From Rhabdaerophilum sp. SD176 (GTDB lineage Bacteria > Pseudomonadota > Alphaproteobacteria > Rhizobiales > Beijerinckiaceae): a stretch of 64,000 nucleotides of DNA. Shown in pieces: positions 34,989 through 37,760 of this stretch. Within the stretch, counting starts at the first letter, position 1, and each line of letters starts with the position of its first letter. Under the pieces are notes generated by a model. That model was not told the origin of the DNA. It did no database searches and saw nothing but the letters and a program-made list of their open reading frames with translations. A program made the translations under genes and the position numbers. Location: assembly GCF_030143245.1 (NCBI RefSeq), contig NZ_JARJNS010000002.1:248001-312000 (forward strand), read 5' to 3'.

Positions 34989-35063
<75 letters not shown>

Positions 35064-35168: not shown

Positions 35169-35528
35169 TCAGGCGGCGAGCATCCGCTTCACCTCATTGA
35201 CGAGGTCCTTGAGGTGGAAGGGCTTGGAGAGGACGCGCGCATCCTTCGGCGCGTTTGATTCCGGATTGAGCGCAACCGCCGCAAAGCCGGTGATGAACAT
35301 CACCTTGATGTCCGGATCGAGTTCGGTCGCACGGCGTGCGAGCTCGATCCCGTCCATTTCGGGCATCACGATGTCGGTGAGCAGAAGCTCGAACGGCTCC
35401 TCGCGCAGCCGGTGATAGGCCGAGCGGCCATTGTCGAAGGACGCGACATCGTAGCCCGCATTCTGGAGCGCCCGCACGAGAAAGCGGCGCATGTCGTTAT
35501 CGTCTTCGGCGAGGAGAATCTTGCTCAT
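35169..35528 (-). CDS. cpdR: Response regulator CpdR
   Basis: 119 residues from ATG 35528; a single receiver domain with acidic residues DD near the N-terminus (LLAEDDNDMRRFL), phospho-accepting Asp in LLTDIVMPEMDG and the conserved lysine in LSKPFHLKDLV. Length and wording match CpdR, which when unphosphorylated primes the ClpXP protease to degrade cell-cycle and other substrates and is phosphorylated through CckA-ChpT. It is divergent from the second amidohydrolase gene, a neighbour pairing seen in related genomes. Confidence 0.9.
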   Translation of the reverse strand: MSKILLAEDDNDMRRFLVRALQNAGYDVASFDNGRSAYHRLREEPFELLLTDIVMPEMDGIELARRATELDPDIKVMFITGFAAVALNPESNAPKDARVLSKPFHLKDLVNEVKRMLAA

Positions 35529-35683
35529 GTCGGTCTCTTCGGGCTTGCCGCGCAAACTGGCAACGAGGGTTAGGCCGTCATGGTAAATATCGGGTGTATT
35601 TTTCCGGCAAAGCCGCAAGGGGGCTGGACCGCCCGGAGCCGGCGCGCCATGTTGCGCGGACGTCCAGCAGGGAAAGGGCTTTC

Positions 35684-36595
35684 ATGGCGGGGCAGGTGCC
35701 GCTCGATCTGGCTGATCTCCCGCCCTTCATTCTCGAGGGCGAGGAAAACCGGGCCACACCGCTCTTCCTGAATTCGCCCCATTCGGGGGATCTCTTCCCG
35801 GCACATTTCCTGGCCCGGAGCCAATTGGCGAGGTCTGCCCTCCGCCGCGCTTCCGACCTCTATGTCGACAGCCTGTTCCGGCCGCTTGTCGCGGCAGGGT
35901 TGCCGTTGATGTCGGCGCAGTTGCCACGCTCCTATGTCGACCTGAACCGCGAGCCGCTGGAACTGGACCCGCGGCTGATTGCCGGAAACCTGCCGGTCGA
36001 TGCGAATACGCGGTCATTGCGGGTTGCCGGCGGGCTGGGTACCATCCCCCGGGTGATCGGCGACCAGGTCGAGATCTATGCCGGAAAGCTGCCGCTCGAG
36101 GAGGCTCTGGCCCGTATCGAAGCGCATTACGTGCCCTATCATCTCCGGCTTCACCGTGAACTCGCGCGGCGGCACCGCGATCATGGCATGGTGCTGCTGC
36201 TCGATCTGCATTCCATGCCGTCGCAGACCTTGCCGCGCCCGCACCGGAGCATGCCGGATCTCGTCATTGGTGACCGCTTCGGCAGCAGCGCCGCGACGAT
36301 GCTGGTCGAGCGGCTCGAACACCTGGCCCGCTGCGCCGGCTTCCGTGTGGAGCGGAACCAGCCCTATGCCGGCGGCTATATCACCGAGCATTACGGCCGC
36401 CCTGGCCTCGGCTGGCATGCCATCCAGATCGAGGTGAACCGCGCACTTTACATGGATGAAGCCCGGCTGGTGCCCCATGACGGGTTCGCCGGCCTGTCGG
36501 CGGCGCTCTGCGAGATCGTGTCGCAACTTGTCGCAGAGCAGGCATTCGATTCCCGCAATTCGGCCTTGCATTTTTCTCAGAAGGCTGCTGAATAA
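35684..36595 (+). CDS. N-formylglutamate amidohydrolase family protein, second copy
   Basis: 303 residues from ATG 35684 with GGAAAGG upstream. Family motifs: FLNSPHSGDLFP with the metal histidine, SYVDLNREPLELDP, LLLDLHSMPS and the GRPGLGWHAIQIEVNRALYMDE segment. This is the longer HutG-like type. No other histidine-breakdown genes are near, so the natural substrate is open. Reads toward the MmgR-like sRNA and may end at the hairpin at 36810-36839. Confidence 0.9.
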   Translation: MAGQVPLDLADLPPFILEGEENRATPLFLNSPHSGDLFPAHFLARSQLARSALRRASDLYVDSLFRPLVAAGLPLMSAQLPRSYVDLNREPLELDPRLIAGNLPVDANTRSLRVAGGLGTIPRVIGDQVEIYAGKLPLEEALARIEAHYVPYHLRLHRELARRHRDHGMVLLLDLHSMPSQTLPRPHRSMPDLVIGDRFGSSAATMLVERLEHLARCAGFRVERNQPYAGGYITEHYGRPGLGWHAIQIEVNRALYMDEARLVPHDGFAGLSAALCEIVSQLVAEQAFDSRNSALHFSQKAAE

Positions 36596-36691
36596 GGGCG
36601 CTCGTTGCCTGATCCGGTGGCGAAACGATCCGAACGGGGCATCCGAATCAAGGGCAGCCCCGCAGAAACGCCGGAATCCATGATTTCGGCC

Positions 36692-36776
36692 AAAAAAAAG
36701 GCCGCACGAAGCGGCCTGAAAGTCTAGGGAGGAAACGCCCAAGGAGGGCATGTCACGAGGGCGAACCGTCGTGACA
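36692..36776 (-). ncRNA. mmgR: MmgR / suhB-type trans-acting small RNA (alpha-r8 family)
   Basis: The minus strand folds as: stem TGTCACGA/TCGTGACA (36769-36776 with 36751-36758), a small hairpin GCCC-TCCTT-GGGC (36737-36749) that exposes CCTCC-like bases, a single-stranded run with TTTCCTCCCTAG, then a GC hairpin GGCCGC/GCGGCC and eight T residues. This order and the CCCTCCTTGGGCGTTTCCTC wording match the conserved alphaproteobacterial suhB/MmgR sRNA, known in Sinorhizobium to affect polyhydroxybutyrate storage. The CCTCC runs can pair with ribosome sites. It lies beside an IMPase-family gene (36972), as the name suhB suggests. The rest of 36596-36971 holds no gene. Confidence 0.82.
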
Positions 36777-36781
36777 AGTCG

Positions 36782-36809
36782 AATATATATTGCGGCGCAC
36801 AAAAGACAA
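36782..36809 (-). promoter_or_regulatory. Sigma-70-type promoter of the small RNA
   Basis: On the minus strand, -35 TTGTCT (36804-36809) and -10 TATATT (36782-36787) are 16 bases apart. The predicted start, about seven bases on, falls at 36775-36776, exactly at the first hairpin of the sRNA. Confidence 0.65.
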
Positions 36810-36839
36810 GGCCTGTCGTGATCGACGGGCCCTTTTTTT
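36810..36839 (+). terminator. Intrinsic terminator on the plus strand
   Basis: Arms GGCCTGTCG (36810-36818) and CGACGGGCC (36823-36831), four-base loop, one G-T pair, then CTTTTTTT. The only plus-strand gene before it is the amidohydrolase ending at 36595, whose transcript would cross the sRNA gene in antisense. Confidence 0.8.
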
Positions 36840-36971
36840 ATTCATCGCTAAGAATGCGTTGTCCCGGGCGGGTTTTCTGCCCTTTGCCAAGCGCGGGAGA
36901 GCACGGGCTTCTGGCCACGGCATCCGGTCTCCGCTAAGGAGAATCACCGGTTGTCCCTCCCGCGAGGATCC

Positions 36972-37760
36972 ATGCGTCCAGTCGATCTCTCGGCCTTTCT
37001 CGAACGGCTTGCCCAGCAATCCGGCGAGGCCATCCTGCCGTTCTTCCGCACCGAACTCAGTGTGCTCGACAAGGGCAGTGACGGGTTCGACCCGGTGACG
37101 GAAGCGGACCGCGCTGCCGAAACCGTGATCCGCCGGCTTATCCAGGCGACCTTTCCGACACATGGCATCCGGGGCGAGGAATTCGACGACGTCAATCCGG
37201 AAGCCGAATACCAATGGGTTGTTGATCCGATCGACGGGACGCGCGCCTTCCTGTGCGGGCTGCCGGTCTGGGGGACTTTGATCGGCCTGATGCGCGATGG
37301 CAATCCGGTGATGGGCGTCATGAACCAGCCCTATACCGGCGAGCTGTTCTTCGGCGATGGCCGGCAGGCGAAGCTCAAGGGACCGCGCGGGCAACGCGCG
37401 CTCATGACTTCCAGCAAGACCCGGCTTGCCGATTCCCACCTCATGACCACCGATCCGCGCCTGTTCCGCGGTGACGAGGCCGAGGCGTTCCTCCGCGTCG
37501 AGAAGCAGGTGAAGCTCTCGCGCTACGGGGTCGATTGCTATGCCTATGCGATGCTGGCTTCAGGCCAGGTCGAGCTGGTCATCGAATCCGGACTCAAGGC
37601 GCATGACATTGTCGGGTTGATCCCTGTCATTGAAGGAGCAGGCGGGGTCATCACCACATGGGATGGCGAGTCTGCCACGAAGGGCGGTGCCATCGTGGCC
37701 GCCGCCAATGCCGAACTCCATGCCCAGGCTTTAGGCCTGCTCGCCCGGCGCGGTGGCTGA
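36972..37760 (+). CDS. hisN: Histidinol-phosphatase / IMPase family enzyme (HisN-like)
   Basis: 262 residues from ATG 36972 with AGGA close upstream. IMPase-family motifs: EEFDD, the metal signature VVDPIDGTRAFLCGLPVWG, and the C-terminal AHDIVGLIPVIEGAGGVITT. Wording is closest to the HisN type that dephosphorylates histidinol phosphate in histidine synthesis in actinobacteria and rhizobia; other small phosphate esters are possible. Lies next to the MmgR-like sRNA. Its last 30 bases overlap the convergent hydrolase gene. Confidence 0.85.
   Translation: MRPVDLSAFLERLAQQSGEAILPFFRTELSVLDKGSDGFDPVTEADRAAETVIRRLIQATFPTHGIRGEEFDDVNPEAEYQWVVDPIDGTRAFLCGLPVWGTLIGLMRDGNPVMGVMNQPYTGELFFGDGRQAKLKGPRGQRALMTSSKTRLADSHLMTTDPRLFRGDEAEAFLRVEKQVKLSRYGVDCYAYAMLASGQVELVIESGLKAHDIVGLIPVIEGAGGVITTWDGESATKGGAIVAAANAELHAQALGLLARRGG

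Follow-up and report, generated by a model that had tools for sequence, protein, structure and literature searches.

The locus considered here raises the question of what is encoded on the minus strand between an amidohydrolase gene and hisN in the window, i.e. the whole stretch of 64,000 nucleotides of Rhabdaerophilum sp. SD176 that was analysed. An initial annotation had placed there a small RNA (sRNA) gene of the suhB/MmgR (αr8) type, and had described its promoter, its stems and its terminator. The observation is confirmed and its interpretation supported: with high confidence, the minus strand of 36776-36692 is an ordinary member of the αR8/MmgR family in the genomic setting already published for such RNAs. 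As a family member the gene is a matter of routine annotation, and its value is that of a comparative data point. In the literature covered, experiments on αR8 RNAs concern only Sinorhizobium meliloti MmgR and the Caulobacter siblings, plus in-line probing of an Agrobacterium copy. The features of the locus are collected in Table 1.

Table 1. Position, strand and basis of the features at the sRNA locus and of its flanking genes (window coordinates).
Feature	Positions	Strand	Basis
cpdR response regulator	35169..35618	-	NF046022, 200.6 bits (cut-off 180); true start probably lies inside the listed ORF
FGase-like gene (N-formylglutamate amidohydrolase family)	35594..36595	+	TIGR02017, 101.2 bits; synteny
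αR8/MmgR (suhB) sRNA gene	36692..36776	-	RF00519 match, fold; start inferred
Intrinsic terminator with eight T	36692..36717	-	stem AGGCCGC-TTCGT-GCGGCCT 36717-36699, T run 36699-36692
Anti-Shine-Dalgarno 10-mer TTTCCTCCCT, αR8 core	36726..36735	-	sequence; published core (PMC12559287)
Small hairpin GCCC-TCCTT-GGGC	36737..36749	-	Rfam structure line; nearly invariant
5' stem-loop, 8 bp, TGTCACGA 36776-36769 / TCGTGACA 36758-36751, 10-nt loop	36751..36776	-	covariation
Sigma-70-like promoter TTGTCT-16-TATATT	36782..36809	-	TTGTCT 36809-36804, 16 nt, TATATT 36787-36782
PhaR/AniA-type operator core TGCGCCGCA (YGCRNYGCR), between -35 and -10	36791..36799	-	motif match
Opposite-strand intrinsic terminator beyond the sRNA promoter, candidate FGase mRNA end	36810..36838	+	stem 36810-36831
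hisN, histidinol-phosphatase	36951..37760	+	TIGR02067, 313.2 bits (cut-off 275.15)

Identity and distribution of the sRNA

The check named in the initial annotation was a covariance-model search against the Rfam suhB family. When run over the window, this search matched RF00519 (suhB/mmgR) to the minus strand at 36756-36685 with 64.5 bits (E 5.4e-11), which spans model positions 1-77 and exceeds the gathering score of 41 bits by 23.5 bits; the match agrees with the proposed identity and nothing in it refutes the proposal. It is the single RF00519 match in the strain's own genome (3.96 Mb, 25 contigs searched). The RNA had further been said to be covered by no protein gene. Mechanically called ORFs do overlap it, for example 36014-36802 on the minus strand opposite the FGase-like gene and 36753-37439 on the minus strand opposite hisN; the statement holds in so far as these ORFs sit opposite named genes.

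In the published descriptions covered, S. meliloti MmgR (αr8, SmelC689, sm8) shares with the window sRNA the Rfam family, the 10-mer core, the terminator, the single copy and a PhaR-type site between -35 and -10. The two differ in length (predicted 80-85 nt in the window vs 77 nt in S. meliloti), in the operator core (TGCGCCGCA vs TGCACCGCA) and in their host, as MmgR comes from a rhizobium whereas the host of the window sRNA is not one. Similarly, SisA of Caulobacter crescentus, which is also an αR8 RNA, shares the family, the core seed and the adjacency to FGase (PMC12559287), although four αR8 copies are described in Caulobacter and one is present in the window genome.

When the own genome and 60 relatives were searched, αR8 matches were found in 55 of the 61 at E <= 1e-3 and in 48 over the cut-off. 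Two of the 14 control genomes, Caulobacter vibrioides and Thermus composti, also gave matches, one of which was over the cut-off; that of Thermus composti was taken as spurious. An unusual expansion was observed in one genome of the same family (G029), with 14 αR8 matches at E <= 1e-3, of which 12 are over the cut-off and three lie outside contig 1.

Genomic neighbourhood

The gene is flanked by the FGase-like gene and hisN, as the position given in the initial annotation had implied. FGase and the sRNA are arranged tail to tail, with cpdR and hisN alongside, in 15/15 genus genomes giving the locus; one further genus genome holds a weak αR8 match only (L042), without any of the three neighbours, and another gave no αR8 match. 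Outside the genus, loci fetched through the sRNA (L002-L050), which are short, include FGase in 25/34 cases and all three neighbours in 16/34. Of the loci fetched through FGase, 68/80 carry the αR8 core in their flanks. The order cpdR-FGase-αR8-hisN is a conserved block. The linkage of αR8, in particular of its main copy, to an FGase gene has already been published (PMC12559287), and the window sRNA has the same linkage, to a neighbour whose protein belongs to the hutG family but scores far below the TIGR02017 equivalog cut-off (101.2 vs 278.75 bits). The nearest named relatives of this FGase protein come from three Beijerinckiaceae bacterium MAGs (96, 95 and 93% identity), and its identity to the protein of Rhizobiales bacterium PAR1 is 72%, which places the host close to Beijerinckiaceae within the Hyphomicrobiales. 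The hisN ORF starts with TTG, and an ATG follows at 36972.

The block precedes hisN, and its motif was originally discovered ahead of a suhB-like gene (PMC1273637); it could on these grounds be a cis-acting leader of hisN/suhB. However, the promoter, the terminator and the Rfam structure all lie on the strand opposite hisN, and the original authors of the suhB motif, in the part of their paper covered, abandoned the cis reading themselves (PMC1273637). With its structure on the wrong strand, a hisN leader was rejected as extremely improbable, and the block is taken to be an αR8/MmgR sRNA gene.

Ten Methylobacterium FGase loci (L058, L059, L060, L062, L063, L064, L065, L067, L087, L100) show no αR8 core, at up to four substitutions, in the ~3 kb flanks fetched; L080 and L105, likewise from Methylobacterium, do carry the core near FGase. 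A tRNA gene is found at window 34992-35063 on the minus strand (68.8 bits).

Promoter and PhaR-type operator

The sigma-70-like promoter reported in the initial annotation is present and is the sole promoter-like site found in 36550-37000 (shuffle mean 0.1). The TGCGCCGCA site between its hexamers fits 20/21 positions of the long PhaR consensus, the one miss being the outermost position. In S. meliloti, mmgR is repressed by PhaR (AniA), and gel shift showed that His6-PhaR binds the mmgR promoter; this promoter holds CAATTGTGCACCGCAGCATTA, the consensus being WNWD2NYGCRNYGCRNH2WNW (PMC12542648). The S. meliloti mmgR operator itself, at up to one mismatch, is absent from 397 genomes of the order, and the published start site could therefore not be placed on homologous sequence. 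The RNA start was derived from the -10 spacing and from the distance between PhaR site and start published for S. meliloti mmgR (PMC12542648).

The conservation of the core was counted over 119 distinct upstream sequences, which represent 126 sites; 14 coreless loci, including the ten from Methylobacterium, and L031, with its site near the locus end, were excluded from the promoter and fold counts. The core occurs in the -35/-10 interval in 100 of the 119 (shuffle mean 4.95) and in the next interval, around the predicted start, in 87 (shuffle mean 4.3), with both operator intervals defined after the sequences had been inspected. All genus sequences hold the first core (15/15) and none the second (0/15), and outside the genus the first is present in 85/104 and the second in 87/104 distinct sequences (e.g. 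L003, L005, L061). Where both are present the spacing of the cores is 18-22 bp, roughly two turns of the helix, in 73 of 74 sequences, and when measured from the first core per interval it is 19-21 in 71 of the 74. The second core, around the start, may be a real operator; no description of it was found in the part of the mmgR literature covered.

Across the genome the full PhaR motif has 20 sites vs 18 for the reversed control, which is no clear enrichment; because this count barely tops its control, the operator is called from where it lies and how well it is conserved. Genes for PhaR (152.9 bits) and Hfq (110 bits) are present in the genome, and three phasin matches are over their cut-off. 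One phasin gene (L134) has two adjacent copies of the full motif in its upstream region; a second (L133) is preceded by two copies of the core, one of them placed between promoter-like hexamers, like that of the sRNA, and the third (L135) by a single core match in a GC-rich stretch. We are moderately confident that PhaR would control transcription of the sRNA. A role in storage-polymer accumulation is proposed by analogy with S. meliloti, and the operator core together with the PhaR, phasin and Hfq genes is consistent with it.

Structure of the RNA

The predicted transcript is ~80-85 nt long, starting probably at 36776-36772 and ending with the T run at 36692. For the 83 nt of 36775-36693 the predicted folding energy is -36.7 kcal/mol (z -6.7), lower than that of any of 200 shuffles. 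The elements of the initial annotation, viz. a perfect eight-base first stem, a small hairpin and linker with CCTCC runs, and an intrinsic terminator with eight T, were all recovered (Table 1). In a model-fitted alignment that comprises 96 distinct sequences, the small hairpin is paired in 100% of its cells. The core UUUCCUCCCU is predicted from sequence and fold to be single-stranded and lies 3' of a weak hairpin, as is characteristic of αR8 RNAs (PMC12559287), and the Rho-independent terminator expected of αR8 members is present, with seven pairs that never vary in nine genus sequences. These observations bear on whether the locus could be a decayed, unexpressed αR8 copy, a reading which is hardly credible given that the pairs of the small hairpin and the terminator are invariant in the nine genus sequences and that the 5' stem shows compensatory changes. 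The reading as an αR8/MmgR sRNA gene is therefore preferred.

The 5' stem deserves separate consideration because the Rfam model begins at 36756, inside its 3' arm and with the first seven model positions unpaired, which leaves the eight-base stem outside the curated Rfam structure. The structure of RF00519 suhB (clan CL00108) has two helices, whereas a third, 5' helix is supported in the window sRNA and its relatives. The discoverers of suhB, in the part of their paper covered, reported besides the terminator just one short helix near the 5' end (PMC1273637). A review, likewise covered in part, gives MmgR three stem-loops (PMC7143759), and a third stem as such may hence not be new.

In the genus alignment, built from nine of the 15 genus sequences, every stem cell is paired and 2/8 pairs show compensatory change. 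Two both-side-changed pairs were matched by 238 of 500 shuffles of this alignment; the number of both-side-changed cells (7) and the covariation score were reached by 0/500. In the model-fitted alignment (99 matches, 96 of them distinct, from 92 sources of 132 records around αR8 or FGase), both-side changes are found in 8/8 stem pairs and 94.6% of the stem cells are paired; the complete structure has 97.7% of its cells paired, vs 29.5-58.1% when it is shifted by 1-3 columns. As the fitted alignment leans toward the model structure, an unfitted fold test was added, in which folding of the 32 nt before the small hairpin yielded z < -2 for 12/12 distinct genus segments and for 73/97 others, where the second operator may raise foldability; the upstream control segment gave z < -2 in 1/12 and 5/97, respectively. 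The genus lacks the second PhaR-type core and yet keeps the stem by compensatory change, which argues that the palindrome of that core does not by itself account for the stem. A third, 5' helix in the window sRNA and its relatives, absent from the two-helix Rfam structure and apparently kept by covariation, is hence a well-supported prediction, and the stem of the genus adds comparative evidence on a helix that the Rfam model omits.

Proposed mechanism and predicted targets

The locus as a whole is best explained by an αR8/MmgR sRNA gene, a reading that we hold with high confidence, and the following mechanism is proposed for it. A housekeeping sigma factor would direct transcription of an 80-85 nt RNA that would end at the intrinsic terminator and fold into three stem-loops, with the single-stranded seed UUUCCUCCCU between the second of these and the terminator. 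Together with Hfq, the seed would pair with purine-rich ribosome-binding sites and block the translation of several mRNAs, and a PhaR-type repressor at the -35/-10 site would couple transcription of the sRNA to the state of polyhydroxybutyrate storage. The expression, Hfq binding, target repression and PhaR control in this scheme are carried over from MmgR of S. meliloti and SisA of Caulobacter.

The initial annotation had suggested that the CCTCC runs could pair with the ribosome sites of many mRNAs. The linker does hold the published 10-mer; the predicted sites, on the other hand, are no more specific than those of a one-base-off control. Across 17 genus genomes the exact seed complement AGGGAGGAAA has 94 sites; the sRNA locus itself accounts for 15, and of the 79 non-self sites 37 precede, by 0-15 nt, a start codon that opens at least 60 aa. 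By cluster, solute-binding proteins account for 13 of these 37 start-proximal sites, and Pfam assigned 6 of 10 chosen proteins from seed sites to solute-binding families; in the own genome, 3/5 non-self seed sites are at a ribosome-binding site. A reversed control, with 20 sites in 17 genomes, had looked favourable. The one-base-off control AAGGAGGAAA, however, gave 53 sites in 7 genomes that hold 46 non-self sites of the seed, and among the 30 of its 53 sites that were fetched 19 lie before a start, 9 of these being solute-binding by eye, not by Pfam. Exact-seed targets were rejected, as this control equals them in number and in kind, and since the seed lists do not beat it no target is claimed. 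The three phasin starts examined have ordinary purine-rich sites, with a perfect 10-mer complement in 0/3.

The seed complement also recurs in nine genus genomes (L151, L176, L177, L181, L187, L212, L225, L231, L235) opposite a conserved coding sequence, presumably pyrG. The recurrence was taken as chance; 2 of the 37 start-proximal sites belong to this antisense site.

Possible antisense transcription and a candidate sponge RNA

The FGase gene points toward the sRNA, and the place where its mRNA ends is of consequence for the latter. In no genus row did the 250 nt preceding the sRNA core yield a plus-strand terminator. Beyond the sRNA promoter the scan did detect one, in 14/15 genus genomes giving the locus, and an imperfect version, with mismatches, was seen there by eye in the 15th; the FGase mRNA may hence run antisense through the whole sRNA. 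Outside the genus a terminator on that side was found in 1/96 rows (L108), and the scan, a simple one that found no plus-strand terminator in 94/96 non-genus rows, does not show how FGase ends there.

It is conceivable that in the genus the activity of αR8 is set by antisense transcription, with FGase read-through to 36810-36838 and the two RNAs titrating or destroying each other. The arrangement of terminators just described holds across the genus with sequences that differ between two subclades, FGase and αR8 are convergent in all rows in which both were found, and Caulobacter is known to have a sponge RNA that targets αR8 (PMC12559287). FGase transcription could nevertheless end by Rho, the plus-strand terminator may merely shield hisN, and its presence outside the genus only in L108 leaves the wider linkage to FGase unexplained. 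Our confidence in antisense control is low, and we consider it unlikely. Somewhat more doubtful still is the extended proposal that the FGase mRNA of the genus would have gained a long 3' region, a full-length antisense of αR8 closed by the genus-conserved terminator, which would be a cis-encoded αR8 sponge, and that other Hyphomicrobiales would use a separate one, for which αr9 is the candidate; if true, a metabolic mRNA would sponge a global anti-Shine-Dalgarno sRNA. The locus offers, in any case, an antisense arrangement that is testable. The αR8/MmgR gene with the PhaR-coupled mechanism set out above stays the preferred reading.

The opposite strand of the locus itself was also considered as αr9 (RF02343, SmrC9), whose weak match there includes a stretch complementary to the αR8 core. 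This was rejected, since the score is 21.9 bits against a threshold of 45 and the own genome holds no αr9 match at E <= 0.1; among the matches listed, none is from the family of the window strain. In S. meliloti, SmrC9 binds Hfq (PMC2848018). It is possible that αr9 sponges αR8 as CrfA does in Caulobacter, a role of which no mention was found in the literature covered, including parts of PMC2780559 and PMC3927594, and the search around this locus thereby yields a testable sponge candidate.

Matches to αr9 were obtained in 127 of the 397 genomes of the order, and the best 30 loci from these (L267-L296) all hold GTCTTGGGAGG. This sequence lies inside a 14-base αr9 stretch that is complementary to the αR8 core at 12-13 positions; in mononucleotide-shuffled αr9 sequences the complementarity averages ~9, and one of 600 reached 13.
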